Shown here one piece after another: positions 26,823 to 43,553 of a stretch of DNA of 64,000 bases (position 1 is the stretch's first letter; the number at the start of each line of letters is the position of its first letter). The DNA is from an uncultured Bacteroidia bacterium (GTDB lineage: Bacteria; Bacteroidota; Bacteroidia; Bacteroidales; UBA932). The notes beneath the pieces are model-generated. The model had not been told where the DNA came from and did no database searches. It worked only from the letters and a program-made list of their open reading frames with translations. The stretch lies in NCBI GenBank assembly GCA_902781705.1, contig CACZKE010000009.1, positions 1-64,000 on the forward strand. The letters run 5' to 3'. The translations under genes and the position numbers were made by a program.

Positions 26823-29039
26823 TTAAAAAGAGAAAGCAATCTTGCCCATGTAATTCCGAGGTGCCTGCGGATACAGTCCCGCTTCCAGGTACATCGGGTC
26901 GGAACCGCCCTGCCAGGCCCGGTAAACCCAGGCATAGGCATAGTAGGAACGGTTCAGGAGGTTGTTCACATACAGGGAAAGTTCCAGGGAACCGCACGGA
27001 ATGTCGAATGTATGGCTCAGGGAAAGGTCCGCCACGAAGAAGGCCGGAATGCAGCGTTCAACCGACTGGGTGTTGTCCCAATACTGCTTGCCGACATACT
27101 TTCCGCTGAGCGTAAGCGTCAGGGGCTGCCATGCGCCACCGAAAGGAGTCAGCGCCACACGGCCCATCCCGACGACGGACGGCGAGAGCAGCATCGTCGT
27201 ATTATCATAGGTCTCTTCCTTATACCCGCCGTTCTCCCAGTCTTCCAGATAGGCCGTGAAAGAACGAAGTTTGTTCGTGGAGAGGGTCAGGTTACCATCG
27301 GCACGGATAATCCGGGAAGGAGTCCAGGCCGCGCTCAGTTCCACGCCCCGGCGCCAGCCACGGCCCACGTTTTCCTTGATGGCATAGCCCGAAGAACTGA
27401 GTTTTCCCGTCTCCAGCAGCATGTCGCGGTATTCCATCAGGTAGCCGTTCACCTCGGCGGAGAAACGGCTTCCGGCGTACCGGTAGCCAAGTTCGATGTC
27501 CAGCATCGACTCCGGCTTGATGGGGATCATCTCTCCCTTGATGTTTTCCTTGATGTCGCTGCGGCCGGGCTCCCGGTGGCCGACGGCGGCGGAAGCGAAG
27601 ATTTTATGGACACCGAAAACGGCCGTCAGGCCCGCCCGGGGATTGAAGAAGTTCCATTTCTCGTGATAGTCCATGGGCACGGAGCTGGCCTTGTCATCGG
27701 GGCCCACGAGGTCGTAGCCGATGTGGCGATACTGGAGGTCCGCATAGGCGGTGAGCCAGGAAAGCGGGCTGTACTCCGCCCGGAGGAAACCGTTCATTTC
27801 CTGTTTCCGGCCGGTATTGCGGTACCAGGTGAAGTTCCGGTTCATCGAATCGTAGTCATAACCGTCCCCCAGGAGGCGGGCCCAGAGCATCTCGCCCCAG
27901 TGGTCGCCACTATAGCGGGAGACATAGACGCCACCGTCCAGTTTCAGAGCCGAGCCCCGGTACCGGAGGGTGGTCTGGCCCACGTACAAGTCGTTCCCCA
28001 TCTTCTTCCGGTAGATCATGTCGCTCTTTTTCACGCCGTCCACGTCGGCAAAGGGATAGCCGAACTCGGCGAACTTGCGGCCGGTCTTGTAATACTCGTC
28101 ATAGCCGTCGCCCCGGGTATAATCCAGGGTGGTGGTCCAATGGAGCCGGTCCGTCAGGCTGCGGGTGTAGTTGAGCTGGAGATGATGCTGCGCATAGTTG
28201 TCCGTCTGGTTGGGATAGTAGCAGGTACGGCCCGCATCATCGACATACTCGCCCGCCCCGTTGTAGGTCCGGTCCACGAGGTACATCTCCGGGGTGATGC
28301 CGTCCCAGGTGATCCCGCTCTTCTGGTCACCCATCAAGTACGTCAGGCGCAAGGAGTTACGGCCTTTCAGCCAGCCAATTACGCCGAACAGGGAGGCGGA
28401 ATTCACCCCCGCGTTCCGGATATAGCCGTCCGTCCGGCCCACGGTCCAGGCCAGGTCGAAGTACAGGCCGGAAGGAAGCAGTCCCGACCGGGCCGAGAAG
28501 CCCGTCAGGAGCGTCCCGTAGGACCCGGCCGAAATCTCGCTACGGAAGGAAGGTTCCGGTGCGACGAAGGCCGTGTTCATGTTGATGCTCGCTCCGAAGG
28601 CACCGGCGCCATTCGCCGACGTACCCAGACCGCGCTGCACCTGGACGCCCGAAAGCAGGCTCGTGAGCGCAGGGATATTGACCCAGAAGACTTCCTGGGA
28701 CTCGGCGTCGTTCAGGGTGATGCCGTTCAGGGTGACATTGATCTGGGATCCCTTGGAGCCGCGGATGGTCATCGCGGAATTGCCCAGGCCGGTTCCGCCC
28801 TCGTTGTAGGTGACGACGGAGGGCAGCAGCCCCAGGGTCATGGGAAGGGAGTTCATGGGATTGGCGCTTTGGAGGGCGCTGCGGCCCACATCGACATGGG
28901 CGACAGGGGTTTCCGCTCCGGCGCGGGTGGAAGAGACGACGATACTGTCCAGACGTTCTTCCCACTGGGTGGTGCTGTTCTGCGCACCTGCGCAGAAACA
29001 CATGGCGGCGAAAGCCGCGGTCAACAGGCTTTTTTTCAT
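26823..29039 (-). CDS. TonB-dependent receptor under TPP riboswitch
   Basis: A 738-residue outer membrane receptor. MKKSLLTAAFAAMCFCAGAQ is a signal peptide; an N-terminal plug (about 30-160: VSSTRAGAETPVAHVD, LLPSVVTYNEGGTGLGNSAMTIRG, NVTLNGITLND) precedes the beta-barrel, which ends in the typical NYMGKIAFSF. A TPP riboswitch immediately upstream indicates that thiamin or a thiamin precursor is the cargo, as for the thiamin-regulated receptor known in Bacteroides. No pnuT-like permease or thiamin kinase is adjacent, so inner membrane uptake must be encoded elsewhere. The start lies in the riboswitch P1 stem. Confidence 0.93.
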   Translation of the reverse strand: MKKSLLTAAFAAMCFCAGAQNSTTQWEERLDSIVVSSTRAGAETPVAHVDVGRSALQSANPMNSLPMTLGLLPSVVTYNEGGTGLGNSAMTIRGSKGSQINVTLNGITLNDAESQEVFWVNIPALTSLLSGVQVQRGLGTSANGAGAFGASINMNTAFVAPEPSFRSEISAGSYGTLLTGFSARSGLLPSGLYFDLAWTVGRTDGYIRNAGVNSASLFGVIGWLKGRNSLRLTYLMGDQKSGITWDGITPEMYLVDRTYNGAGEYVDDAGRTCYYPNQTDNYAQHHLQLNYTRSLTDRLHWTTTLDYTRGDGYDEYYKTGRKFAEFGYPFADVDGVKKSDMIYRKKMGNDLYVGQTTLRYRGSALKLDGGVYVSRYSGDHWGEMLWARLLGDGYDYDSMNRNFTWYRNTGRKQEMNGFLRAEYSPLSWLTAYADLQYRHIGYDLVGPDDKASSVPMDYHEKWNFFNPRAGLTAVFGVHKIFASAAVGHREPGRSDIKENIKGEMIPIKPESMLDIELGYRYAGSRFSAEVNGYLMEYRDMLLETGKLSSSGYAIKENVGRGWRRGVELSAAWTPSRIIRADGNLTLSTNKLRSFTAYLEDWENGGYKEETYDNTTMLLSPSVVGMGRVALTPFGGAWQPLTLTLSGKYVGKQYWDNTQSVERCIPAFFVADLSLSHTFDIPCGSLELSLYVNNLLNRSYYAYAWVYRAWQGGSDPMYLEAGLYPQAPRNYMGKIAFSF

Positions 29040-29120
29040 ATACTTTCCTCCGGCGGTATGAACCGCATCAGGTTCAACGGGTCTGTTCTCAACCGGGCGG
29101 CCGCCCGATACCCCGATATG
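29037..29120 (-). promoter_or_regulatory. TPP (THI-box) riboswitch
   Basis: On the minus strand the conserved order is clear: CGGGGTATCGGGCGG, GTTGAGAACAGACCC, GTTGAACCTGATGCGG, TTCATACCG and GGAGGAAAG. P1 is closed by CATAT (29116-29120) pairing with ATATG (29037-29041), which contains the TonB receptor start codon. Ligand binding would therefore hide the start. It begins three bases after the cyclotransferase stop, and no TAnnTTTG box lies in that gap. Confidence 0.95.
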
Positions 29121-29123
29121 GCT

Positions 29124-29876
29124 TTATTTCTTTTTCGTCAGTTGAATTTCATACAACTTGGGCCAATACTTCCCTGTCAGGAAGATCCGCCCCTCCGCAT
29201 CCACGGCGATGCCGTTCAGGACATCCGTCTGCGGCGTCCGGTCCTTCGCGGGCAGCAGTCCCCGGCAATCCACCGTCGCCTCCACCTTCCCGTCCTCGGG
29301 ATTGATGATGACGATGGAGTCGGAGGTATAGACATTGGCCCAGACCTTCCCGTCGATCCACTCCAGTTCGTTCAGGTAGCGGACGGACTTCCCGTCCAGG
29401 GTCACCCGCACCCGGCGCAGCTCCTTGAGGTCCTTGTCCATGAAGAACAGGAAAGAGGAACCGTCGCTGGCGATGAGTTGCTTTCCGTCCGTAGTGATCC
29501 CCCATCCCTCGCGGGGATAGGCCACCGTGGACTTGTACTTGAGCGAATCCGCATCATAAATGAAGGCCAGTTTGTTGGTCCAGGTCAGGATGTACAGGTT
29601 GCCGTCCAGGATGCAGGAGCCTTCGATGAAGTACTTCCGGGAGAAGTCCTGGCGGCTCAGCGCCTCGCCGGTCTCGAGGTCCACGGTCCTCAGGGTACTC
29701 TCGCCCCACTGGCCGGTCGTCTCGATGAAGCGGCCGCCGTCGAAGAAGAGTCCCTGCGTATAGGAAGTGACGTCGTGCGGATACTCCTTCACCACCTGGG
29801 CCTTGTATTCCCTGACCTTGGCGCTCCCGCAGGACAGGGCGCACAGGGCAAGCAGTATGAATGCAACTTTTCTCAT
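29124..29876 (-). CDS. Glutaminyl-peptide cyclotransferase, lipoprotein
   Basis: A 250-residue protein of the plant/bacterial-type glutamine cyclotransferase family (five-bladed beta-propeller), which converts N-terminal Gln to pyroglutamate. Family blocks: YPHDVTSYTQGLFFDGGRFIETTG near residues 35-58, ILTWTNKLAFIYD, and ELEWIDGKVWANVYTSD. The signal MRKVAFILLALCALSC makes it a lipoprotein (Cys16). It is probably cotranscribed with the downstream TonB receptor, because the riboswitch starts three bases after its stop and no separate promoter is visible. Confidence 0.9.
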   Translation of the reverse strand: MRKVAFILLALCALSCGSAKVREYKAQVVKEYPHDVTSYTQGLFFDGGRFIETTGQWGESTLRTVDLETGEALSRQDFSRKYFIEGSCILDGNLYILTWTNKLAFIYDADSLKYKSTVAYPREGWGITTDGKQLIASDGSSFLFFMDKDLKELRRVRVTLDGKSVRYLNELEWIDGKVWANVYTSDSIVIINPEDGKVEATVDCRGLLPAKDRTPQTDVLNGIAVDAEGRIFLTGKYWPKLYEIQLTKKK

Positions 29877-29922: not shown

Positions 29923-30238
29923 CCACAAAGGCGGGACGATCTGCCGCGCCGGGAAACCGGTGAGGAAAGTCCGCACAGGGCAGGGCGCCTGACTGTGGAA
30001 AGCACAGAAGGGAGTAATCTTTTCCGTCCGTAACAGAAAATGACCGCCCGCAAGGGTAAGGGTGAAAACGCGGGGTAAGAGCCCACGACGGCGTGCGGTG
30101 ACGTACGCCGGGTACGGCGGCAGGCCTGCAAGACCAAATATACCGGCAGATGAGGGCGGCCCGTCCGATGCCGGGGGGTAGGTTGCGAAGATAAATGGCA
30201 GATTCAAAAACAGAAAGCGGCTTACTGCCCCGCCTTTT
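29923..30238 (+). ncRNA. rnpB: RNase P RNA, class A
   Basis: The catalytic RNA of RNase P. P1 pairs AAAGGCGGG (29927-29935) with CCCGCCTTT (30229-30237). The universal core is present: GAGGAAAGTCCGCAC near 29961, ACAGAAA near 30033, AAGGGTGAAAACGCGGGGTA near 30057, AGAGCCCAC, and the 3' core ACAGAAAGCGGCTTA at 30210-30224. Total length of about 315 bases is normal. Boundaries are set by P1 and the promoter and could shift a few bases. Confidence 0.94.
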
Positions 30239-30243
30239 ACCAT

Positions 30244-30277: not shown

Positions 30278-30304
30278 CGTCATTCCCGGCTCGACCGGGA
30301 ATCT
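30278..30304. repeat. Dispersed repeat type C at the ilvE end
   Basis: CGTCATTCCCGGCTCGAC then CGGGAATCT: a short palindromic unit (ATTCCCGG-CTCGA-CCGGGAAT) that overlaps the ilvE stop codon by two bases. It resembles the TCATT...AATGA repeats of types A and B in style. Confidence 0.55.
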
Positions 30305-31343
30305 ACACCTCCACGAAGCGGCACCAGCCGTGTTCGTCGAGGAACTGGCCGTCCTGGATGGCGCGGATGCGCTTGTACAGGGCGGTGGACTTGGGACCGA
30401 CCTCCCCGTCGGGGCAGAAGCGGAAGGTGCGGGACACTTCCGGGGCTTCCAGGACGGGTTTCATGTCGATGTGGGAGAGCGGGGTGATGACGACGGCCGT
30501 GCCGCAGCCACCCGCCTCCTCGAAGGTATCCAGTTCGTCCAGCGGGACCGGACGCTTCTCGACCTCCATGCCGATATCCCGCGCAACTTGCTGCAGGGTC
30601 TTGTTCGTGATGGACGGAAGGACGCTGTCGGACAGCGGGGTTATGTACTTGTTCCCCTTGATGCCGAAGAAGTTGGACGAGCCGAACTCGTCCACGAACT
30701 CCCGGGTGGAGGAATTCAGGTACAGGAGCTCCGCATAGCCCTGCTCGTGGGCGAACTTGTAGGGCTTGAAGGTATTGGCATAGTTTGCGCCGATCTTGTA
30801 ACTTCCGGAGCCCTTCGGGGCCGCCCGGTCGTAGTTTCCGGGAATGACGGCGGCGCAGGACTTGAGGTGGGCGCCGTAGTAAGAGCCCACGGGGGCGCAC
30901 ATGACGGCGAAAACGGCCTCCGGATAAGGTACCAGTTGCATCTGCGGATGCATGCCGATCAGGAGCGGGCGCAGGTACATCGAAGCGCCGAGCCCGTAAG
31001 GGGGCAGGAATTCGATATTCCCGCGGATGCAGTCCTCGCACATCTGGAGGAACATTTCCTCCGACGGGCAGGGCATGCCCAGGTAATCCGCCGTCCGGCG
31101 CAGCCGGGCCGCATTCTCGTCCGGACGGAACATCGCGATGCGGCCGTCCATCTGCCGGAAGGCCTTCAGGCCCTCGAAGCAGGAAATCGCATAGTGGAAG
31201 ACCTGCGCGAAGGGGTCGAAAGTGAAGGAAAAGGTTTCCGTGGATTGAGGAACGGACCACTGCCCGTCCTTGTAATGGGCCAGGACGACCGTCCGGGTCC
31301 GGTAGGCATCGAAGCCCAGGGATTTCCAGTCTATCTGATGCAT
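30303..31343 (-). CDS. ilvE: Branched-chain amino acid aminotransferase
   Basis: A 346-residue class IV PLP aminotransferase performing the last step of Val, Leu and Ile synthesis. The PLP Lys is in GSYKIGANYANTFKP; FHYAISCFEGLKAFR, YLRPLLIGM, and EAGGCGTAVVITPL are family blocks. It is the last gene of the ilv-leu operon, six bases after leuB, and ends at the terminator shared with rnpB. Confidence 0.96.
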   Translation of the reverse strand: MHQIDWKSLGFDAYRTRTVVLAHYKDGQWSVPQSTETFSFTFDPFAQVFHYAISCFEGLKAFRQMDGRIAMFRPDENAARLRRTADYLGMPCPSEEMFLQMCEDCIRGNIEFLPPYGLGASMYLRPLLIGMHPQMQLVPYPEAVFAVMCAPVGSYYGAHLKSCAAVIPGNYDRAAPKGSGSYKIGANYANTFKPYKFAHEQGYAELLYLNSSTREFVDEFGSSNFFGIKGNKYITPLSDSVLPSITNKTLQQVARDIGMEVEKRPVPLDELDTFEEAGGCGTAVVITPLSHIDMKPVLEAPEVSRTFRFCPDGEVGPKSTALYKRIRAIQDGQFLDEHGWCRFVEV

Positions 31344-31349
31344 AACGTC

Positions 31350-32399
31350 TTATATTTTAGATGCAATCCAGTCGCCGACTTCCGAGGTGGAGGCGCTGCC
31401 GCCGAGGTCCTCGGTCGTGACGCCGGCCTCCAGCGACGCCGCCACGGCTTCGCGGATGGCCTTTCCTTCCTCCATGAGCCCGAAGGCGTACTCGAACATC
31501 ATCGCCGCGGAGAGGATGGCCGCGACGGGGTTGGCGATATTCTTCCCGGCCGCCTGCGGGTAGGAGCCGTGGATGGGTTCGAACAGGGAGGTGTGCTCCC
31601 CCACCGAGGCCGATGCCAGCAGGCCCATGGACCCGCTGATGCAACTGGCTTCGTCCGTGAGGATGTCGCCGAAAGTGTTCTCCGTCACCAGGACGTCGAA
31701 GAACTTCGGGCAGCGGATGAGTTGCATGGCGGCGTTGTCCACGAACATGTAGTCCACCTGGATATCGGGATAGGACGGTTCCATCTCCCGGGCGACCTGG
31801 CGCCACAGGCGGGAGGACTCCAGCACGTTGGCCTTGTCCACGACCGTCAGGTGCTTCCTGCGGCGGCCGGCGTATTCGAAGGCCAGGCGCAGGATGCGCT
31901 CCACCTCGGCCCGGCTGTAGATGCAGGTGTCATAGGCCGTGTTTCCATCGTCCTTCCGGCCCTTTTCGCCGAAGTACATGCCGCCGGTGAGTTCCCGGAT
32001 GCACAGGAAATCGGCCCCATCCACGAGTTCGGTCTTGAGCGGGGACTTGTCCACGAGGGACTTGAAGGTCTCCACGGGACGGAGGTTCGCATACAGGCCC
32101 AACTGCTTCCGGATAGCCAGGAGGCCCTGCTCCGGACGGACCTTCGCCGTCGGGTCGTTGTCATACTTGGGGTCGCCCACGGCGCCGAAAAGCACGGCGT
32201 CGCTCTCCATGCACAGTTCGTGCGTTTCCTGCGGATAGGCGTTCCCGAACCGGTCGATGGCGCAGGCGCCCACGTACCCGTACGTGTAGGACACCTCATG
32301 GCCGAAACGGGCGCACACGGCGTCCACCGCCTTGACGGCCTGTTCCACGACCTCCGGGCCGATGCCGTCGCCGGGCAGTTTTGCAATCTTGAGTTTCAT
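31350..32399 (-). CDS. leuB: 3-isopropylmalate dehydrogenase
   Basis: A 349-residue NAD-dependent decarboxylating dehydrogenase of leucine synthesis. The start [17 protein letters not shown] (32399) is typical; substrate and metal residues are in [31 protein letters not shown] and [27 protein letters not shown] is the cofactor region. Its ATG overlaps the stop of the preceding synthase gene by four bases. The frame open to 32510 is discarded because it overlaps that gene. Confidence 0.97.
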
Positions 32400-33919
32400 A
32401 TCAGGTTGTTTTCGATTAAGTTCAGCATTTTCACCGTGGCCTTGATGGCGGCCTCGGCCTGGTCGGAATCCACGCCCCGGGTCTTGAAGGCCGTTCCGTC
32501 CAGGTCCCACGAAATCGTGGTCTCCACGAGAGCGTCCGTCTTTCCGCCGGGCGGGATCTTCACCACATAGTCCGTCAGTCTCGGATGCCTCCGCCCCAGC
32601 CGGTCATAGATGATCCACAGGGCCTTCATGAAGGCATCGTACTGGCCGTCGCCGGCCGATGCTTCCTCGTAGCAGGTTCCGTCGATATCGATCCGGATGT
32701 TCGCGATGGGGCGCATGCCCCGGGCGAGTTGGAGACTGTAATTGATGATGTGGATCCGGTCCGGGGCCGAAGAGACGTCGCCCTTGAGGACTTCCGCCAC
32801 GATGAACGGAAGGTCCTCCGGGCTCAGGCTTTCCTTCTTGTCGCCCAGTTCCACCACCCGTTCCGTCACCCGCTTCATCTGTTCGGGTGTCAGGGTGATT
32901 CCCAGGGCCTCCAGGTTCTTCATGACATTGGCCTTGCCGCTGGTCTTTCCCAGCGCATAGTGCCGATGCCGGCCGAAGCGTTCCGGAAGGAGGGCATTCT
33001 GGTACAGGCCGCCCTTGCGGTCGCCGTCGGCATGGACCCCGCTGGTCTGGGTGAAGGCAAACTCCCCCACCAGCGGCTTGTTGGAAGGGATCCGGATGCC
33101 GGAAATGGTTTCCACATAGCGGGATACATGCATCAACGCGCTCTCGTCCAGACTGTTGGGCACTTTCAAATGATCGTTCAGGATGCCGATGGCACTCGAC
33201 ACCGGCAGATTGCCGGTCCGCTCCCCCAGCCCGTTCACCGTCGTATGCAGGCCCTTCACGCCGGCCTTCACGGCCTCGAACGCATTGGCCGCCGCAAAAT
33301 CATAGTCGTTGTGCGGATGGAAGTCGAAATGGACCGACGGATAGCGCTCCACCATCGTCCGGCAGTAGGTACGCGCGCTTTCCGGATCCAGGATGCCCAG
33401 CGTATCGGGCAGCATGATCCGGCGGACCGGCGCATCCTTCAGCGCATCCACGAGGAAGAACACATAGTCCGGGGAATCCTTCATCCCATTGGACCAATCC
33501 TCCAGGTACACGTTGACAGTCAGTCCCTTGGACACGGCGAGGCCAACGTTCCGGAGAATGTCGGACAGATGCTCTTCCGGGGTTTTCCGAAGTTGTCCCG
33601 TCACATGGCGGAGCGACCCCTTCGTCAGGAGGTTCATAACCTTGCCGCCCGAGGAGGCGATCCAGTCCACGGAGACACCGTCGTCCACGAATCCCAGGGC
33701 CTCTACGGCATCGAGCCGGCCACAGGAAGCGGCCCAGGCGCAGATTTTGGCGAAGGCCTCCTGCTCGCCCCGGGAAACCCGGGCCGAGGCCACCTCGATC
33801 CGATTCACCTTGAGTTCCTCCAGCAGCAGGCGCGCGATCGCAAGTTTCTCGTCCGGATTGAACGAGACACCGGCGGTCTGCTCCCCGTCGCGGAGGGTGG
33901 TGTCCATTATTTCGAGCAT
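32396..33919 (-). CDS. cimA: Isopropylmalate/citramalate synthase-family protein
   Basis: A 507-residue DRE-TIM metallolyase-type condensing enzyme: [10 protein letters not shown] near residue 5, [17 protein letters not shown] (metal His pair), [11 protein letters not shown], and a C-terminal LeuA-type allosteric domain with [14 protein letters not shown]. It is distinct from the leuA in the same operon and more divergent. (R)-citramalate synthase, feeding a threonine-independent route to isoleucine, is one reading; a second isopropylmalate synthase is the other. The start is placed at MLEIMDTT (33919); ATG 33907 in a TAATG overlap with the leuD stop is an alternative. The symbol is tentative. 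Confidence 0.82.
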
Positions 33920-34506
33920 CCGGCTTCCCACGCTTCGATCTTGTCTTTCTGGAGCATCAGGAAGTCGATGTCGTCCAGGGCATTCATCAGGCAGTACTTC
34001 TTGTAGGGATTCAGTTCGAACGCTTCGCTCCGTCCCGTGGACAGGTTCGTCACGGTCTGGTTCGGGACGTCCACGCGGACTTTCGCCTTCGGGTCCGCGG
34101 CAATGGTCGCGAACAGTTCGGCGAGGAAATCCGGGGTCACCACCACCGGAAGGACGAAATTGTTCAGTTCATTGTTCTTGTGGATATCCGCAAAGAAACT
34201 GGAAATCACCACTTTGAACCCATAACCGGCAATGGCCCAGGCGGCGTGTTCCCGGCTGGAGCCGGAGCCGAAATTGCGGCCGGCCACGAGGATTTCGCCG
34301 CCGTAGCGCGGATCGTTCAGGACGAAATCCCGCTTGGGCGTCCCGTCCGGGTCGTAGCGCCAGTCCCGGAAAAGGTTCTCCCCGAAGAAACTTTCCTCCC
34401 GGGTGGTCGCCTTCAGGAAACGGGCGGGGATGATCTGGTCCGTGTCCACGTTCTCCAGCGGAAGCGGAACGCAGGTGCTTTCTATGATGTCGAATTTCTG
34501 TTTCAT
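33907..34506 (-). CDS. leuD: 3-isopropylmalate dehydratase small subunit
   Basis: A 199-residue swivel-domain subunit of isopropylmalate isomerase. [31 protein letters not shown] and the C-terminal [17 protein letters not shown] are typical of LeuD. It works with LeuC, whose stop its start overlaps by four bases. Confidence 0.96.
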
Positions 34507-35900
34507 ACGAGGAAGTCTCTAGGGTCGGTGATGACGCCGGTGACAGCCGCAGCGGCGGCCGTGAGGGGGCTGGCGAGGAGAGTGCGGGAACCGGGGCCCT
34601 GGCGGCCCTCGAAATTCCGGTTGCTCGTGGAAACGCAGTATTTGCCGACAGGAACCTTGTCCGGATTCATCGCAAGACAGGCCGAACAGCCCGGCTGGCG
34701 GATCTCGAAACCGGCCTTCCGAAGGACCTTGTCCAGTCCTTCGGCCTGAATCTGGCGGAGGACCGCCTGCGATCCGGGGACCAGCCAGGCCACGACGCCC
34801 GGCGCCTTTTTCCGGCCTTGCACGACGGAGGCGAAAGCCCGGAAATCCTCGATGCGGCCGTTTGTGCAGGCCCCGAGGAAGACATAGTCCACCGGTTTGC
34901 CGACGAGGGCGTCACCCGGTTGGAAATCCATATATTTCAAGGCCTTGCAGAAGGAAGGCTGCCCTTCGGCGGGAATCTCGTCCAGCGTGGGGACATGTCC
35001 GTTCACGGCCGTGCCCATGCCGGGATTCGTCCCGTAGGTAATCATCGGCGGAATCTCGGCCGCGTCATAGACGACCTCCCGGTCGAAGACGGCGTCGTCG
35101 TCGCTCCGAAGTTCTTTCCAGCGCTCGACCGCCTCTTCCCACGCCTCCCCCTTCGGAGCATATTCACGCTCCTTCAGGTAGGCGAAGGTCGTCTCATCCG
35201 GGGCGATGAAACCGCCGCGGGCACCCATCTCGATGGAGAGGTTGCACAGAGTGAGGCGACCTTCCATGGACAGGGAACGGACGGCGGAACCGGCGTACTC
35301 GACGAAGTAGCCCGTGGCACCGCTGGTCGTCAGCCTGCTCATCAGGAACAGGGCCATGTCCTTGGCCGTCACGCCCTTCCCGAGTTCGCCCTCGATGCGG
35401 ATCCGCATGGACCTCGGCTTCTGCTGGAGGATGCACTGCGACGCCAGCACCATTTCCACCTCGCTGGTGCCGATGCCGAAGGCAACTGCCCCCACGGCGC
35501 CATGGGTGGAAGTATGGGAATCGCCGCAGACGATGGTCATTCCCGGAAGCGAAAGCGCCTTCTCCGGCCCTACGACATGGATGATGCCGTTGTCCGGTTC
35601 ATTCATCCCGTAATGCGTCAGGCCGAATTCGGCCGCATTTGCGGCGAGGGCGTCCACTTGCTTTTTGGAGACCGGATCCTCGATGGGGCGGTCCTGGTGC
35701 TCCGTAGGCGTATTGTGGTCCGGCATGCAGAAGATTTTCTCCGGCCGCAGGCAGCGGAGACCGCGGGCCCGCAGGCCGTCAAAGGCCTGGGGGCTCGTCA
35801 CTTCGTGGCAGTACAGCCGGTCGATATACAACTGGTCCGGGCCGCCGTCCACATGCTGGACGACGTGCGCATCCCAGATCTTGTCAAACAGGGTGTTCAT
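34503..35900 (-). CDS. leuC: 3-isopropylmalate dehydratase large subunit
   Basis: A 465-residue aconitase-family subunit. Substrate and cluster features include [23 protein letters not shown], the cluster Cys in FLGACTNGR and in [11 protein letters not shown]. Length is normal. It is five bases downstream of leuA. Confidence 0.97.
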
Positions 35901-35905
35901 CCGTT

Positions 35906-37396
35906 TCAGATTTTGTTGATACAGTCCACATAGGCCTCGATCGAGGCGGTCACGATATCCGTAGAGGCGCCGAACCCGTAATACACGCGTCCCTCATTCT
36001 CCACCTGCATATGCACCTTGCAGCAGTCGTCGGAGCCCTTGGTGACGCCCTGGATGGTGAATTCGTTGATGGTCACCTGGCGGCGGACGATCTGGCGGAG
36101 GGCGTTGATCGCGGCATCCACCGGACCGTTTCCGGTCGCGGCGGCCTCGAACTTCTCCCCGGCGATGTCCAGGCCGATGGAAGCCACCGGCTTCATCCCG
36201 ATGCCGCTGGTCGCCTGGAGCCAGTCCACCTTGATGTGGCGGCCGGCAGCCCGGTCGGCCCCGGCGAGCATCAGGATGTCGTCGTCGTGGATTTCCTTCT
36301 TGCTGTCCGCGAGGCGGAGGAACTGCTCGTACACCTCGTCCAGTTTCTCTTCGTCCAGCTTCACGCCGTTCACCTCCAGGCGGTACTTGAGCGCCGCCCG
36401 GCCGCTCCGGGCCGTCAGGACGATGGAATTCGTATCCACGCCTACATCCTTCGGGTCGATGATCTCGTAGGTCTCCGCCCGCTTCAGGACGCCGTCCTGG
36501 TGGATGCCGGAGGAATGGGCGAAAGCGTTCTTCCCGACGATGGCCTTGTTGGGCTGGACCGGCATGTTCATCAGGGTGGATACGAGCCGGGAGGTGGGAT
36601 AGATCTTCTGCGTGTTGATGTTCGTCTCCAGCGGAATGCCCTTGTGGGCCTTCAGGATCATCGCGATCTCCTCCAGGGCGGTGTTCCCCGCCCTTTCGCC
36701 GATGCCGTTGATCGTGACCTCGCACTGACGGGCGCCGTTCAGCAGGCCCGACATCGTGTTGGCCGTGGCCATCCCGAGGTCGTTGTGGCAGTGCGTGGAG
36801 ATGACGGCCTTGTGGATACCGTCCACATGCTCCATCAGGTACTTGATCTTGGCGCCGAATTCCTCCGGCAGGCAGTAGCCCGTGGTGTCGGGGATATTGA
36901 CGACGGTCGCCCCCGCCTTGATGACGGCCTCGACCACCTTCGCGAGGAACTCATTGTCCGTACGGCCGGCATCCTCGGCATAGAACTCCACGTCCTCCAC
37001 GTACTTCTTCGCGTACTTGACGGCGCGGACGGCCCGTTCCAGGACCTCCTCCCGCGTGGAATTGAACTTGTAGCGGATGTGGGAATCGGAAGTGCCGATG
37101 CCGGTATGGATCCGGCCCCGCTTGGCGTACCTGAGCGCTTCCGCGGCCATGTCGATGTCCTTCTCCACGGCCCGCGACAGGGCGCATACCGTGGGCCAGG
37201 TCACCGCCTTGGAGATCTCCACCACCGAGTTGAAATCCCCGGGGCTGGAGATCGGGAAGCCGGCCTCGATGACATCCACGCCCAGGAGTTCCAGGGCCTT
37301 GGCCACCTGGATCTTCTCCACGGTGTTCAGCTGGCATCCGGGCACCTGTTCCCCGTCGCGGAGCGTGGTGTCGAATATGTACACCCGGTCGCTCAT
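35906..37396 (-). CDS. leuA: 2-isopropylmalate synthase
   Basis: A 496-residue enzyme condensing acetyl-CoA with 2-oxoisovalerate, the first leucine-specific step. [15 protein letters not shown] at the start, [14 protein letters not shown] (metal His), NGIGERAGN and the C-terminal regulatory domain ([15 protein letters not shown]) define it as the long, feedback-regulated LeuA. Its start overlaps ilvC by four bases. Confidence 0.96.
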
Positions 37397-38442
37397 CGGT
37401 CGATCTCTTCGGGACGGAGTTTACGGACGGCGGCGCCGGTGCGCCAGAGTTCGCTCTCGCGGAGCGCCTTCAGTTCCTTCTCGAGACCCACGCGGTAGTC
37501 CGGCTTGGAGTTCGCGTCGATGGAGACCTGGGCCTCCTCGCCGCTGGCCACCCGCTCATAGAGTTTCTCGAAAACCGGCTTCGTGGCATCGTGGAACGGG
37601 CCCATCCAGTCCAGGGCACCGCGCTGGGCGGTGGTGGAGCAGTTGGCATACATCCAGTCCATGCCCTTCTCGGCAAAGAGCGGCATCAGCGACTGGGTAA
37701 GTTCCTCGACGGTCTCGTTGAAGGCCTCGGACGGGCTGTGTCCATGCTCGCGGAGCACCTCGTACTGGGCCAGCAGGATACCCTGGATGGCGCCCATCAG
37801 CGTGCCGCGCTCACCGGTGAGGTCGGAATAGACCTCGCGCTTGAAATCGGTCTCGAACAGGTAGCCGGAGCCTACGCCGATACCCAGGGCGAGGGTGCGC
37901 TCGAGGGCGCGGCCGGTCGCATCCTGGTACACCGCATAGGAGGAATTCACGCCGCGGCCCTGCAGGAACAGACGGCGGAGGGAGGTGCCGGAGCCCTTCG
38001 GGGCCACCATGATCACGTCCACGTCGGCCGGCGGGATGATGCCGGTGCGCTCCTTGTAGGTGATGCCGAAGCCGTGGGAGAAATACAGGGCCTTGCCGGG
38101 GGTGAGATGCTTCTTCACCGTGGGCCAGACCTCGATCTGGGCCGCGTCGGAAATCAGGTACTGGATGATGGTTCCCTTCTCGCAGGCCTCCTCGATCTCG
38201 AAGAGGGTCTTGCCGGGCACCCAGCCGTCGGCGACGGCCTTGTCATAGGTCTTGCCCTTGCGCTGGCCCACGATCACGTTGAACCCGTTGTCCTTGAGGT
38301 TCAGCGCCTGTCCGGGACCCTGGACGCCGTAGCCGATGACGGCGATGACCTCGTCCTTCAGGACCTCGCGTGCCTTTTCCAGGGTGAATTCCTCGCGGGT
38401 CACGACGTTCTCGTCGACACCGCCAAAATTGATCTTTGCCAT
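37393..38442 (-). CDS. ilvC: Ketol-acid reductoisomerase
   Basis: A 349-residue NAD(P)H-dependent, Mg-dependent enzyme of Ile/Val synthesis. [17 protein letters not shown] is the Rossmann loop, [13 protein letters not shown] the substrate-side block, and the metal-binding acids lie in the C-terminal helical domain ([23 protein letters not shown]). It is a Bacteroidetes-type class I enzyme. It is six bases downstream of ilvN and overlaps leuA. Confidence 0.96.
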
Positions 38443-38448
38443 AGTATG

Positions 38449-39006
38449 TTATTGATTTAATAATTGTTTCCTTTCCTTTTCCCGCTTGCGGAGGAACTTG
38501 AACACGGGTTCCTGCTCCGCCCGGGAGACTGCGATCCGGCCCGACCGGACGAACTGGAGGACGCCCACGGGCTTGAGGTCGTCATGCAGGGCGGCCGTTT
38601 CCTCCGAGAGGCCGGTCTTCTGGATGACCGTGAATATCTTGTTCATTTCCACGATGCGTGCGTGGTATTTGCTCAGCAGGTGCTCGATGTCGCCGTTCTC
38701 CAGGAGGGCGGGCGTCGAGACCTTGTACAGGCACAGTTCGCGGTACACGATCTTGTCGGCCGTGTAGAAGAAGGCCTTGATCACGTCCACGCGCTTTTCG
38801 ATCTGCTGGACGCTCTCCTTCACCTTTTTCTCCACGCCGGAAGTGACGATCGTGATGTTGTGGATCCCTTCCATCGACGTGGCGCCGGCGGAGAGACTCC
38901 AGATGCTCAGGCCGTGGCGCGTGAACACGTTCGTGATCTGCGCCAGGAGGCCGATCTGGTTCTCGGTGTAGATGGTCACCGTATATTCCTTCACCTGATT
39001 GTCCAT
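38449..39006 (-). CDS. ilvN: Acetolactate synthase regulatory subunit
   Basis: A 185-residue regulatory subunit with an N-terminal ACT domain (YTVTIYTENQIGLLAQITNVFTRHGL) and the C-terminal ALS-associated domain. It confers valine feedback on IlvB. The start is taken at MDNQVKEYT (39006), just past the ilvB stop; an in-frame ATG at 39021 would overlap ilvB. Confidence 0.92.
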   Translation of the reverse strand: MDNQVKEYTVTIYTENQIGLLAQITNVFTRHGLSIWSLSAGATSMEGIHNITIVTSGVEKKVKESVQQIEKRVDVIKAFFYTADKIVYRELCLYKVSTPALLENGDIEHLLSKYHARIVEMNKIFTVIQKTGLSEETAALHDDLKPVGVLQFVRSGRIAVSRAEQEPVFKFLRKREKERKQLLNQ

Positions 39007-39008
39007 CG

Positions 39009-40718
39009 CTAACTGTACCATTCGGATTCTGTGATCATGATCTCATGGATGCCCTTTCCCGGAGGAACCATGGGCATCACCATTCCCTCTTCCTGCACAT
39101 GAACGTCCAGGAGGAAGGGGTCGTCGTCCTTCCACATCTCCCGGAGGGCGGATTCCAGGTCTTCCCGCTTCTCCACCGAGACGGTCCGGATCCCGTAGGC
39201 CCGGGCGATGAGCGCGTAGTCGGGATTGAGCATCCGCGTCTGCGAGTAGCGGCGGCCGAAGAAGAGTTCCTGCCACTGGCGGACATTGCCCAGCCAGTTG
39301 TTGTTCAGGAGGACGACCTTGACGCCGATCCCCTCCTGCATGATGGTCCCGAACTCCTGTATGGTCATCTGGATGCCGCCATCCCCGACGAAAAGGCATA
39401 CCGGACGCTCCGGGGCGGCGACTTTCGCGCCGATGGCAGCCGGAAGGCCGAAACCCATCGTACCCAGGCCCCCGGAGGAGATGAAACTCCGGGTCTCCCG
39501 GAAACGGGAATAGCGGGCGCCCATCATCTGGTTCTGGCCCACGTCCGTCACGACGACCGCCTTGCCGTCCGCCGCCCGGACCACCCGGTCCACGACCTCG
39601 CCCATCTTGAGCAGGCCGTCCCCGGGATGCACTTCCGGGTCGATGACTTTTTCCTTCTCCACGGCATCGCAGCGGTCGAAGGCGGCATTCCATGCGGGAT
39701 GCTTCCGCTCCTGCATCCGTTCGGTCAGGAGGGTGAGGACCTTGGCGGCATCGCCCCGGAGAGGCACATCGACCGGAATGATTTTGCCGATCTCGGAGAT
39801 GTCAATGTCGATATGGATGACCTTCGCCTGGCGCGCATAGGTGGACACCGTACCGGTCACGCGGTCGTCGAACCGCATGCCCACGGCGACGAGTACGTCG
39901 CAGGAATTGGTCATCTGGTTGGGCGCAATGTTCCCGTGCATCCCGATCATGCCGCGGTACAGCGGGAAATCGGACGGGAGGGCGCTGAGGCCGAGCAGGG
40001 TGGATCCAGCGGGGATGTCACCCTTCTCCAGGAAGGAGCGGAGTTGCTGCTCGGCATGGCCCAGGATGACGCCCTGGCCGAAGACGACGAAAGGTCTCTC
40101 GGCCGCGTCAATCAGTTCGACCGCCTTATTCACAGCCTGTTCCGAGATCTTCGGATCCGGCACGTAACTGCGGATGAAGCGGCATTTCTCGTATTTGAAA
40201 TCCGTCAGGCCCACCTGCGCGTCCTTCGTAAAGTCCAGGACAACGGGACCGGGACGGCCGGAACCCGCGATATAGAAGGCCCTGGCCACGGCCCAGGCCA
40301 CCTCGTCCGCGCTGCGGATCTGGTAATTCCATTTGCTGATCGGCCCCGTAAGACCGATGACATCGGCCTCCTGGAACGCATCCGTTCCCAGGGCCGCCGA
40401 AGAGACCTGGCCGGTGATGACCACGACGGGCGTGGAATCGGTCATCGCATCATGCACGCCGGTAATGACGTTCGTCGCTCCCGGACCGGAAGTCACGATC
40501 ACGACGCCGGGCGTCCCTTTGATGCGGGCATAGCCCTGCGCCGCATGGATGGCGCCCTGTTCGTGGCGAACCAGGATGTGGCGCACATCATCCTTATAAT
40601 CCTCCAAACTGTCGTACACGGGCATGATCTGCCCGCCGGGATACCCGAAAACGGTATCCACCCCCTCCGCGATGAGGGCCTTCCAGAGCGCTTCGGAACC
40701 TGTAATCATCTTTGTCAT
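39009..40718 (-). CDS. ilvB: Acetolactate synthase catalytic subunit
   Basis: A 569-residue thiamin-diphosphate enzyme making acetolactate or acetohydroxybutyrate. [28 protein letters not shown], the central FAD/TPP domain and the GDGGIQ...NNNW ThDP motif are all present. The ATG at 40718 lies in dispersed repeat A and overlaps the ilvD stop (ATGA); an ATG three codons on (MITGSEALW, 40709) is nearer the usual family start, so the repeat may have added MTK. Confidence 0.96.
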
Positions 40719-40738
40719 TTCGAGCTTGTCGAGAAATC
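40713..40738. repeat. Dispersed repeat type A forming ilvD/ilvB junction
   Basis: An inverted 26-base copy of 3387-3412. On the minus strand it encodes the last residues DFSTSSK of IlvD, the IlvD stop and the first bases of ilvB. Confidence 0.85.
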
Positions 40739-42559
40739 TCTGACGGCCCCCTTGTCGGCCGAAGTCACCATCCGGGCATACGCCTGCAGGCTCCGGGAAA
40801 CCTCCCGCTGCCGTACGGGCGGCGTGAAGGCCTTGTTCCCGCGAGCCTCCTCTTCCGCCCGACGTCTGCCGAGTTCCTCATCGGAGAGGCAGACACGGAT
40901 GGAACGTGCCGGGATGTCGATTTCCAGGATGTCTCCGTCCCGGACCAGGGCGATGTTCCCACCCGCGGCCGCTTCCGGAGAGATGTGGCCGATGGAAAGG
41001 CCCGAGGTGCCGCCGCTGAAGCGGCCGTCGGTCAGGAGGGCGCATTCCTTCCCCAGATGGACCGATTTGAGATAGGAGGTGGGATACAGCATTTCCTGCA
41101 TGCCCGGGCCGCCTTTGGGTCCTTCGTAGGTGATGACGACGACATCCCCGCTTTTCACTTTCCCGCCCAGGATGCCGTCGCAGGCCGCTTCCTGGGAGTC
41201 GAAGACCTTCGCCGGGCCGGTGAACTTCCAGATGGAGGCATCCACGCCGGCCGTCTTCACGACGCACCCGTCCTGCGCAATATTGCCGAAGAGGACGGCC
41301 AGGCCGCCATCGGCCGTGTAGGCATGGGCCACCGAACGGATGCAGCCCTTTTCCCGGTCCGTGTCCGCTTCGGGGTAATAGGTCTCCTGGGAGCCCATCC
41401 GGGTGCTGAAACGGCCGGCGGGCGCGCTGAGGAACAGTTTCTTCGCCTCGTCCGTCACATGCGGGGAAAGGAGGGCGTAGCGGTCGATCTCCTCTCCGAG
41501 GGTCATCCCGTCCACCCGGTAAAGGGTGGTGTCCACGAGGCCGCATTCGGCCAGTTCGCGCAGGATGGAGACCACGCCGCCCGCCCGGTTCACGTCCTGG
41601 ACATGATAGACGGGGGTATTGGGAGCCACTTTACAGATACAGGGGACTTTGCGGGAAAGCGCGTCGATATCGGCCATCGTGAAATCCACGCCCGCTTCCC
41701 GGGCGACGGCCAGCAGGTGCAGGACCGTATTGGTGGATCCGCCCATGGCAATATCCAGCGCCATCGCATTCAGGAAGGCGGGACGGGTGGCAATCGAACG
41801 CGGAAGGACCCGCTCGTCGCCGTCCCGGTAGTATTTCCAGGCATTCTCCACGACGAGAGCCGCGGCTTTGCGGAAGAGTTCCGTCCGGTTCACATGCGTC
41901 GCGACCACGGTGCCGTTACCGGGCAGGGCCAGGCCGATGGCCTCGGTCAGGCAATTCATCGAATTGGCCGTGAACATGCCGGAGCAGCAGCCGCAGCCGG
42001 GACAGGCACGCTCCTCCACCTGCGCCACCTCGTCATCGGACAGGGAGGCGTCCGCGGACTGGACCATCGCATCGATGAGGTCCAGTTTCCGGTTTCCCAG
42101 TACGCCCGCTTCCATCGGACCGCCGGAGACGAAGACCGTGGGGATATTCAGCCGCATCGCAGCCATGAGCATGCCGGGGGTGATCTTGTCGCAGTTGCTG
42201 ATGCACACCATGGCATCGGCCTTGTGGGCATTCACCATATATTCGACGGAATCGGCGATGATTTCGCGGGAAGGAAGGGAATAGAGCATGCCGTCATGGC
42301 CCATGGCGATGCCGTCGTCCACGGCGATGGTGTCGAATTCGGCGGCGAAACAGCCCAGTTTCTCGATTTCCGCCTTCACCAGTTGGCCGGCTTCATGCAG
42401 ATGCGTGTGCCCGGGGACGAACTGCGTGAAGGAATTCACGACGGCAACGACCGGTTTTCCAACCTGGTCCGCCTGCATGCCGGCCGCCCGCCAAAGGGCG
42501 CGGGCGCCTGCCATCCTGCGTCCCTCGAAGGTGACGCTGCTCCTCAGTGGATGTTTCAT
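40715..42559 (-). CDS. ilvD: Dihydroxy-acid dehydratase
   Basis: A 614-residue Fe-S dehydratase of Ile/Val synthesis. Cluster cysteines are in [10 protein letters not shown] and [19 protein letters not shown], and a late MLYPTSYL...DGRFSGG block is typical. It is the first structural gene of the operon, 26 bases downstream of the attenuator terminator. Its C-terminal DFSTSSK is encoded by a dispersed repeat and is probably an acquired tail. Confidence 0.97.
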
Positions 42560-42584
42560 ATCAAAACTACACTACTATATAAAA

Positions 42585-42618
42585 AACCTCCTTCCCGTCG
42601 CGGACTGAGAAGGAGGTT
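42585..42618 (-). terminator. Attenuator terminator of the ilv-leu operon
   Basis: On the minus strand AACCTCCTT and AAGGAGGTT form a nine-pair stem around a 16-base loop, followed by TTTTTATAT. It lies between the leader peptide and ilvD, so it ends transcription before the structural genes. Confidence 0.9.
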
Positions 42619-42655
42619 GGTTTTTGGTATTCACCGTCACGCCTTTCAGTCCGCG
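42594..42655 (-). promoter_or_regulatory. Antiterminator pairing of the ilv-leu leader
   Basis: CGCGGACTGAAAGG (minus strand, 42642-42655), overlapping the leader peptide stop codon, pairs with CCTTCTCAGTCCGCG (42599-42613) over 14 pairs with one bulged C. The second strand includes part of the terminator 5' arm, so the two hairpins exclude each other. Confidence 0.82.
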
Positions 42656-42711
42656 CCTATCTTAAGGACGAGGATAATCAGAGAAAGGACAAGGACGAGA
42701 ATGCTGTTCAT
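42646..42711 (-). CDS. ilvL: ilv operon leader peptide (attenuation)
   Basis: A 21-codon open frame. Thirteen of 21 residues are Ile, Leu or Val: residues 4-9 are ILVLVL and 11-16 LIILVL, with Ile again at 18. The stop codon lies inside the antiterminator strand. A ribosome stalled at these codons for lack of charged tRNA would leave that strand free to pair; a ribosome reaching the stop would mask it and allow termination. It is too short for routine gene calling. Confidence 0.9.
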   Translation of the reverse strand: MNSILVLVLSLIILVLKIGAD

Positions 42712-42735
42712 CGGCTTATAAATCGTAACCGATGA

Positions 42736-42766
42736 CAAATATCGCAAAAGAGTTTTTAAAAAACAA
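42736..42766 (-). promoter_or_regulatory. Promoter of the ilv-leu operon
   Basis: On the minus strand TTG (42764-42766), a 20-base spacer and GATATTTG (42736-42743; seven of eight consensus positions), about 25 bases upstream of the leader peptide ATG. Confidence 0.7.
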
Positions 42767-42782
42767 GAAAAACTTAGGAAAA

Positions 42783-43553
42783 TTATTGACAATCAGCATC
42801 CAGCAGCGCCGGGAAAGAAGCCCGCACGTTATCCAAAAGCGCCTTTTTGATTTCGAATTCGATGATGTCAATCCGATTTTCCTTACAAATTGAAAGTTGT
42901 TCCCCGCGCGGACCGTACAATCCGGTATGTCCGGAGTACAGGTTCCCGGGGTCCTTCCCCACCCGGTTCACACCGGCGACAAAGCACACGTTCTCAATGG
43001 CCCGGGCCTTCAGGAGGGCATCCCAGGCATCCACCCGCTGCTGCGGCCAACTGGCTACGTAGAGTATCAGATCGTAATCCGGCTTCCCGTCCACCATCCG
43101 GTTGCGGGCAAAGACCGGGAAACGGAGGTCGTAGCAGACTTGCAGCAGGATGCGGAAACCGGCATGTTCCACGATGACACGCTCCTGCCCCGCCGTGTAA
43201 TGCTCATGCTCCCCCGCATACGTAAAGAGATGATGCTTGTCGTAATACACATAATGCCCGTCCGGATACACGAAATAGAAGCGGTTCCGGTAGGTACCGT
43301 CCGAGGCATGCACCGAGACGCTGCCCGCTACGGCGCAATCCTTGGCCTGCGCATAGGCCTGCATCCAGCGGAGGGCATCCCCCTCTTCGCTTTCAGCCAC
43401 CCCTTCCGGCTGCGTCACGAAGCCGGTGGAAAACATCTCGGGAAGGACCACCAGGTCCGTCTTCTGGGTGCCCATGAGCATCCGCCGGGCATCCTCCCGG
43501 CTCTGCTCGGGCGCCGCCCAGGTGGGCGCAGTCTGCAACAGTGTAATTCTCAT
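42783..43553 (-). CDS. Omega-amidase (nitrilase superfamily, YafV-like)
   Basis: A 256-residue C-N hydrolase with the intact catalytic triad: Glu39 in LVVLPEMFSTGF, Lys in YYDKHHLFTYAGEHEHY and Cys in LLQVCYDLRFPVF. The signature matches omega-amidases that hydrolyse alpha-keto acid amides (ketoglutaramate, ketosuccinamate) in methionine salvage or glutamine transamination; substrate assignment is inference. It stands alone, upstream of and codirectional with the ilv operon. Confidence 0.9.
   Translation of the reverse strand: MRITLLQTAPTWAAPEQSREDARRMLMGTQKTDLVVLPEMFSTGFVTQPEGVAESEEGDALRWMQAYAQAKDCAVAGSVSVHASDGTYRNRFYFVYPDGHYVYYDKHHLFTYAGEHEHYTAGQERVIVEHAGFRILLQVCYDLRFPVFARNRMVDGKPDYDLILYVASWPQQRVDAWDALLKARAIENVCFVAGVNRVGKDPGNLYSGHTGLYGPRGEQLSICKENRIDIIEFEIKKALLDNVRASFPALLDADCQ

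Follow-up and report, generated by a model that had tools for sequence, protein, structure and literature searches.

The closest described systems are the leader-peptide attenuators of the enteric ilvGMEDA, ilvBN, leu, and trp operons, among which trp supplies the paradigm of the 1:2 helix. Attenuation of amino acid operons has also been approached by comparative genomics, reportedly by Vitreschak et al. in 2004, in a study whose abstract is said to mention Bacteroidetes/Chlorobi. Another leader of this phylum is the Bacteroid-trp RNA motif (RF01692), which we take to be a Trp leader attenuator. Weinberg (2010; PMC2864571) lists it as a cis-regulatory motif of Bacteroidetes. Two leader ORFs within one leader, sensing ATP and proline, are described for the tandem attenuators of Salmonella mgtCBR (PMC3641672). 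In the B. thetaiotaomicron transcriptome, leader-like short ORFs are reported in 5' UTRs, and ilv is absent from the available part of the main text (PMC7366714). The titles and abstracts that we searched name no ilvD leader in Bacteroidota, which is no proof of novelty because subscription papers were mostly absent from that search.

Here we describe a leader upstream of ilvD in a stretch of 64,000 nucleotides from an uncultured Bacteroidia bacterium; this whole stretch is called the window. The leader is very probably a ribosome-mediated attenuator of transcription, responsive to charged tRNA for Ile, Leu, and Val (together, ILV). No family in Rfam 15 matches it: the 12 matches at 42540..42800 (E up to 10) were all below gathering score, the best having an E of 0.59, and there was likewise no match in nine further loci, including the ilvD leaders L034 and L090. 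A T-box or riboswitch was accordingly rejected, as no Rfam match at the locus exceeded its gathering score.

Leader, Terminator, and Operon in the Window

Coordinates of the features are given in Table 1. The leader peptide, MNSILVLVLSLIILVLKIGAD, consists of 21 residues, 13 of which are Ile, Leu, or Val, in runs at codons 4–9 and 11–16. At the ILV frequency of the operon proteins (0.219), the binomial probability of at least 13 such residues among 20 is about 4e-5, a value that holds for a single ORF of this kind and is uncorrected for the number of short ORFs. CTT makes up three of the six Leu codons listed in the window leader, compared to 8% in the operon.

Between the leader ORF and the first gene lies an intrinsic terminator, a hairpin (AACCTCCTTCTC...GGGAAGGAGGTT) followed by a T-tract, 25 nt before ilvD. 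It was detected by a ViennaRNA-based scan; simple pattern scans for terminators did not list it. Part of its 5' arm and loop is arm 3, whose duplex with arm 2 has a predicted energy of −24.5 kcal/mol (z −4.5) that none of 100 shuffles equaled.

Table 1. Features of the ilvD leader and the ilv-leu operon in the window, with the evidence for each.
Feature	Position	Strand	Details and basis
Nitrilase/amidohydrolase-like gene upstream of leader	42783..43553	minus	Best NCBIfam match below its cut-off
Putative Bacteroidota-type promoter, degenerate	42736..42767	minus	CTTG-N20-GATATTTG; 8/10 consensus positions
Leader peptide ORF	42646..42711	minus	ATG at 42711, stop TGA 42648..42646; peptide MNSILVLVLSLIILVLKIGAD
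Arm 1 of candidate anti-antiterminator, codons 3–12	42678..42703	minus	Minimum-energy fold; duplex with 42654..42628
Arm 2, antiterminator 5' strand	42642..42655	minus	CGCGGACTGAAAGG; contains stop codon; pairs with arm 3; covariation
Arm 3, common to antiterminator and terminator	42599..42613	minus	CCTTCTCAGTCCGCG
Intrinsic terminator, hairpin 42618..42585 plus T-tract	42581..42618	minus	−20.5 kcal/mol; covariation
ilvD, dihydroxy-acid dehydratase, first gene	40715..42559	minus	NF009103, TIGR00110 above cut-off
ilvB, acetolactate synthase large subunit	39009..40718	minus	TIGR00118 above cut-off
ilvN, acetolactate synthase small subunit	38449..39021	minus	TIGR00119 above cut-off
ilvC, ketol-acid reductoisomerase	37393..38442	minus	TIGR00465 above cut-off
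leuA, 2-isopropylmalate synthase	35906..37396	minus	TIGR00973 above cut-off
leuC, 3-isopropylmalate dehydratase large subunit	34503..35900	minus	TIGR00170 above cut-off
leuD, 3-isopropylmalate dehydratase small subunit	33907..34506	minus	TIGR00171 above cut-off
Probable cimA, (R)-citramalate synthase, start uncertain	32396..33931	minus	Best match NF042433, 632.8 bits, cut-off 950
leuB, 3-isopropylmalate dehydrogenase	31350..32510	minus	TIGR00169 above cut-off, match from residue 41
ilvE, branched-chain aminotransferase, last gene	30303..31343	minus	TIGR01123, NF009897 above cut-off

Ten genes in the order ilvD-ilvB-ilvN-ilvC-leuA-leuC-leuD-cimA-leuB-ilvE follow the leader on the minus strand from 42559 to 30303 (12.3 kb), with gaps of at most 6 nt and overlaps of 4–25 nt between the listed ORFs. 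The listed GTG ORF of leuB overlaps cimA by 115 nt, and its true start is probably downstream of that GTG. Strand and spacing suggest that the ten genes form one transcript. The cimA assignment is inferred, because its best match falls below the curated cut-off; each of the other nine genes scores above cut-off with one or more models that bear the name of its enzyme. Together they cover the pathways to valine, leucine, and, via citramalate made from pyruvate, isoleucine; the operon thus makes the amino acids encoded in its leader. Just past the operon end are a TPP riboswitch (29027..29125, minus strand) and a bacterial RNase P RNA (29928..30240, plus strand). On the other side, the nitrilase/amidohydrolase-like gene lies on the same strand as the leader and ends 71 nt before its ATG.

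In coordinates and description, the initial annotation was correct as to leader ORF, arms, and terminator. Direct reading of the sequence bore out its 21-codon peptide with 13 Ile/Leu/Val residues in two runs, the stop codon does lie within a strand complementary to part of the terminator 5' arm, an intrinsic terminator does stand just upstream of ilvD, and the 12-kb ilv-leu operon that it placed behind the leader is present, with cimA named by inference. The promoter was its weak part (see below).

Occurrence of ILV-Rich Leaders Upstream of ilvD

A search for IlvD in 61 genomes, including that of the window, gave matches in 26, with 27 loci; a search of a genome collection gave at least 597 matches, the best 80 of which were used, for a total of 107 loci with some upstream DNA. 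We scored as ILV-rich any ATG-initiated ORF of 8–45 codons with eight or more ILV residues in its best 12 residues. Such an ORF lies upstream of ilvD in 55 of the 107 loci, vs. 52 of 2140 shuffles and three of 107 reverse strands; in the window too, the codons of the short ORF are largely those of the operon's end products. All carriers are among the 85 Bacteroidota loci (55/85), with none among the 22 others (0/22), the latter assigned by kinship for the 27 loci from genomes and by record title for the 80 from the collection. Named carriers include Bacteroides, Phocaeicola, Heminiphilus, Odoribacter, and Labilibaculum, as well as metagenome-assembled genomes labelled Alistipes and Paludibacter. 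Of the 14 loci from the window's genus in which an ilvD start is present, 11 have the leader; the exceptions are L006, L008, and L009.

For the 54 distinct leaders, including the window's, peptide length ranges from 15 to 33. Ile, Leu, and Val make up 80.4% of the ILV-densest 12 residues, a value biased upward because the stretch was picked for these residues, and Ala, Phe, Gly, and Met together make up 3.9%; Ser, Asn, and His are the next commonest.

The initial annotation was to stand or fall by homologous leaders lacking both this frame and the complementarity described below, and it stands, though 30 of the 85 Bacteroidota loci fail the ILV rule. Three of these loci look by eye as if they had leaders that the rule missed: L052 has a GTG start, L055 is cut by a contig end, and L097 has a score of 7. 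Among the loci titled Prevotella or Prevotellaceae, eight of 10 are leaderless by the rule, the two with a leader being L036 and L041. By inspection, several of these eight have a TAnnTTTG-like element close before ilvD.

Two loci (L025 and L090) carry two consecutive modules of ILV leader ORF plus terminator, in tandem, upstream of ilvD. Such a pair may act as an AND gate or make the switch for a single signal tighter. A second, less ILV-rich module was seen by inspection in L104. In L044, the second module, which ends ~480 nt upstream of the first module's start, was judged to be a chance ORF.

A survey of the phylum gave IlvD matches in 46 of 61 genomes, from which 29 new loci were taken. 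Nine of these have an ILV score of at least 8 when any start codon is allowed, and a terminator was called in only two, L123 and L139. In one family (f38; L126–L129 and several of L147–L166), an ILV-rich leader ending like LLGIIILSLLGILLVG lies upstream of ilvD; the ORF is followed by a hairpin of the GTCAATCCC...GGGATTGACC type without a U-tract, and GGGATT also occurs within the leader codons. Five such loci had no Rfam match. From their sequences, these would seem to be a different, unexplained leader type. In another family (f39; L114, L117, and L123), ILV-rich ORFs upstream of ilvD are followed by a common CCCAAGTCCAT motif.

No IlvD match was found in 35 of the first 61 genomes, including 15 of the 33 with completeness of 90% or more and contamination of 5% or less. 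Loss of branched-chain amino acid synthesis in some relatives may be the reason; incomplete genomes are common in this set.

Covariation and Position of the Stop Codon

We aligned the 54 distinct leaders from arm 2 to the T-tract (alignment A1), with the consensus GUGAGAAAGGU ... AAGCCUUUCUCA ... UGAGAAAGGCUUUUUU. For the antiterminator, 81.1% of cells in A1 pair, 10 of 10 pairs have changes on both sides, and 43 cells have such changes; none of 500 shuffles, a comparison inflated by the relatedness of the leaders, reached any of these measures, and all slid registers, which keep that relatedness, were lower. Because A1 was cut at an arm 2 found by complementarity, and so leans towards pairing, we made a second alignment (A2) cut 33 nt before each ORF end, irrespective of arm 2. 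In A2, 80.5% of cells pair, 42 cells have changes on both sides, and the covariation score is 0.269, each unmatched in 500 shuffles; nine of 10 pairs have both-side changes (3/500 shuffles), and there are 25 further pair types (6/500). Slid versions of A2 were lower on all measures, save that a slide of −2 also gave nine both-side pairs. The terminator in A1 has 87.8% of cells paired, 11 of 11 pairs with both-side changes, and 75 such cells (0/500 shuffles). The consensus fold given by RNAalifold is the terminator, not the antiterminator.

Some changes involve all three strands, arm 4 being the partner of arm 3 in the terminator. The bases of arms 3/2/4 at core position 3 are T/A/A in 21 leaders, C/G/G in 10, A/T/T in four, and G/C/C in one, so that both partners fit in 36 of 54 leaders and not in 18, a count for which arm 2 had been chosen as the strand most complementary to arm 3; on A1, 24 of 54 leaders have no pair between arms 2 and 3 at this position. 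The antiterminator is mutually exclusive with the terminator, given the arm 3 that they have in common, the covariation between arms 2 and 3, and this triple covariation.

In an ungapped 8-base search, 41 of 54 leaders pair at seven or eight positions between arms 2 and 3. A thermodynamic test of the antiterminator duplex placed 33 of 49 leaders ahead of at least 99 of 100 shuffles and the other 16 below that mark. At most two of 48 foreign leaders pair as well in only 19 of 49; elsewhere foreign pairing is often equal, which is what conserved arms would give.

In the duplex test, 35 of 49 leaders have a stop codon that falls within or adjoins the antiterminator strand. Relative to the end of the stop codon, the 8-base core starts two bases upstream in 19 of 54 leaders and at some point from −25 to +11 nt in 51; it overlaps the stop in 26. 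With the core so placed, a ribosome at the stop would cover arm 2, a geometry that fits the suggestion in the initial annotation that a ribosome parked there might block the antiterminator.

Promoter and Upstream Gene

The literature on Bacteroides promoters gives the consensus TTTG/TAnnTTTG. In the window, the match of the putative element is equaled by 55 of 100 shuffles and is thus, alone, no better than chance; a sigma-70 promoter scan of 42500..42900 found none. Across leaders with enough upstream DNA, 42 of 52 (a count that includes the identical pair L015 and L047) have at least nine of 10 matches to TTTG-N17-23-TAnnTTTG in much the same place, the good elements of relatives ending 16–47 nt before the leader ATG. 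The promoter initially annotated thus finds backing in its position, where most leaders have a good one, but not in the window element itself.

These data bear on whether the terminator merely ends the upstream nitrilase/amidohydrolase-like gene (42783..43553), with the ORF there by chance. Such a role would suit a same-strand gene that stops so close to the leader ATG, and yet it is scarcely credible: the combination of leader, antiterminator, and terminator is present before ilvD, and covaries, in 53 further distinct loci, and a good promoter match stands just before the ORF in most loci.

Folding Models and Proposed Mechanism

For an attenuator at this locus, we propose the following scheme, in which transcription and translation would be coupled. 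Transcription would begin a short way ahead of the leader ORF. When Ile, Leu, and Val abound, the leading ribosome would reach the stop codon and cover arm 2, whereupon arm 3 would pair with arm 4, the terminator would form, and RNA polymerase would stop just before ilvD. With any of the three charged tRNAs short, the ribosome would stall on the ILV codons and arm 2 would be free to pair with arm 3; no terminator would form, and the operon would be transcribed. If the leader were left untranslated, termination might be restored by pairing of arm 2 with arm 1, which consists of the ILV codons.

The initial annotation had seen no evident anti-antiterminator stem. On this point it needs revision, as there is a candidate with moderate comparative support, between codons 3–12 and the antiterminator region. 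In the minimum-energy fold of the window leader, the ILV codons (~42703..42678) pair with 42654..42628, overlapping arm 2; the duplex has an energy of −19.7 kcal/mol, with 14 of 100 shuffles and 6% of synonymous recodings as good. The z of the whole-leader fold is −1.5. Across 49 leaders, this 1:2 helix beats at least 99 of 100 shuffles in 12 and at least 95 in 19, and compared with synonymous recodings it is at 5% or better in 15 and at 1% in four. Probably some leaders have a real helix here, with a weak one or none in the rest.

We modeled the effect of ribosome position with partition functions, assuming an E. coli-like downstream ribosome footprint of 13 nt. At equilibrium, the probability of the terminator in the window is 0.97 without a ribosome, 0.57 with the ribosome at codon 4, 0.00–0.10 at codons 5–11, 0.51–0.75 at codons 12–15, and 0.97 from codon 16 to the stop. 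The switch exceeds 0.5 in 22 of the 54 leaders and not in 32, which in this model would need kinetic trapping. Because equilibrium folding alone fails to switch those 32, we also modeled the transcript cut before arm 4. In that state, the best ILV stall gives an antiterminator probability of at least 0.5 in all 54 leaders, with medians of 0.84 when stalled and 0.18 with the ribosome at the stop; in the latter position the value is at most 0.2 in 31 leaders and not in 23. Without a ribosome, the antiterminator is favored (0.72 in the window, median of 0.75 for the 54 leaders).

That the antiterminator still forms before arm 4 when no ribosome is present argues that the 1:2 helix is not the main switch. 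A variant of the attenuator with just two states, driven by the ribosome at the stop and with no working 1:2 helix, is possible, if rather unlikely in our judgment. The ribosome-free median before arm 4 speaks for it, as do the reach of a ribosome at the stop to arm 2 in 51 of 54 leaders and the lesser support for the 1:2 helix than for the other helices; it fits poorly with the enrichment of 1:2 pairing over shuffles (12/49 at 99/100) and synonymous recodings (15/49 at 5%), and with the high probability of the terminator in the window at equilibrium without a ribosome.

In either form, attenuation of a branched-chain amino acid operon is supported by the conserved ILV frame, the covariation of both exclusive helices, the anatomy of the leader, the operon content, and the promoter placement in relatives. 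The initial annotation's reading of the locus as a leader-peptide attenuator is strongly supported on these grounds, and its comparison with the trp/ilv attenuation logic of enterics is apt as to mechanism.

Other Amino Acid Leaders in the Same Genome

Two further candidate leaders were found in the window's own genome. A His leader, MRQNANILHHHHRIS, with an intrinsic terminator lies directly upstream of hisG (L140, G000:C15 near 53.7 kb), and a Phe/Tyr leader, MRFYGFGFTKYYYQDR, with a terminator lies before a prephenate dehydratase gene (L146, G000:C13 near 21.1 kb, minus strand). Each has an TACCTTTG element before its ATG, and in L146 the bases after the leader stop (CCGGAC) match GTCCGG of the terminator. 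A scan for terminators plus short ORFs, run on the window and on five loci, gave dozens of weak modules, many of them within genes, and the case for the His and Phe/Tyr leaders is for that reason based on codon content and place. One TrpE model had no match in this genome. The Bacteroid-trp model had none above gathering score in the window and none in the genome.

These leaders also help to judge an alternative in which the ilvD leader ORF has a role of its own as the gene of a small, hydrophobic membrane peptide and the hairpin is a separate terminator. Judged from its sequence, the peptide is hydrophobic enough for a single membrane helix. Other hydrophobic residues are scarce, however (Ala, Phe, Gly, and Met at 3.9%, with Ser, Asn, and His next), the peptides range in length from 15 to 33, the stop codon of 35 of 49 leaders lies in or abuts the antiterminator strand, and hisG and the prephenate dehydratase gene have leaders that match their own amino acids. 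On this evidence we consider a membrane peptide highly improbable.

Comparison With Known Systems

Leader-peptide attenuation itself is long known and a textbook matter; the window leader is a further example, one without a family in Rfam 15. For many Bacteroidales, it offers a well-supported model of how the branched-chain amino acid pathway is regulated. Because the mechanism needs ribosome and RNA polymerase in step, such leaders could report on transcription-translation coupling in Bacteroidota. Initiation in this phylum is largely without Shine-Dalgarno pairing. We advance only tentatively the wider proposal that Bacteroidota use leader-peptide attenuation as a general control of amino acid synthesis despite this unusual initiation, that the antiterminator often contains the stop codon, which would make a ribosome at that codon the switch itself, that some lineages have tandem attenuators for the same signal, and that another family (f38) uses an ILV leader and a conserved hairpin that lacks a U-tract. 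If so, this last type would amount to another form of ILV leader control, one that works without an intrinsic terminator.

Like the attenuators of enteric ilvGMEDA, ilvBN, leu, and trp, the window leader combines a run of regulatory codons, an alternative antiterminator and intrinsic terminator, and a biosynthetic operon directly downstream, and with ilvGMEDA it shares multivalent control by Ile, Leu, and Val. It differs from them in phylum and in its operon, which starts with ilvD and runs to about ten genes, leu and a probable cimA among them. The stop codon in or touching the antiterminator strand (35/49) also sets the Bacteroidota leaders apart from the enteric ones, and the 1:2 helix is only moderately supported here; the likeness drawn here is one of mechanism. 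The attenuators said to be covered by Vitreschak et al. in 2004 share the mechanism and possibly the phylum. The Bacteroid-trp RNA is, as here, a structured cis-regulatory leader in Bacteroidota, with a model that the window does not match. In Salmonella mgtCBR (PMC3641672), two leader ORFs lie in one leader as in L025 and L090; the signals differ there, whereas both ORFs are ILV-rich here.
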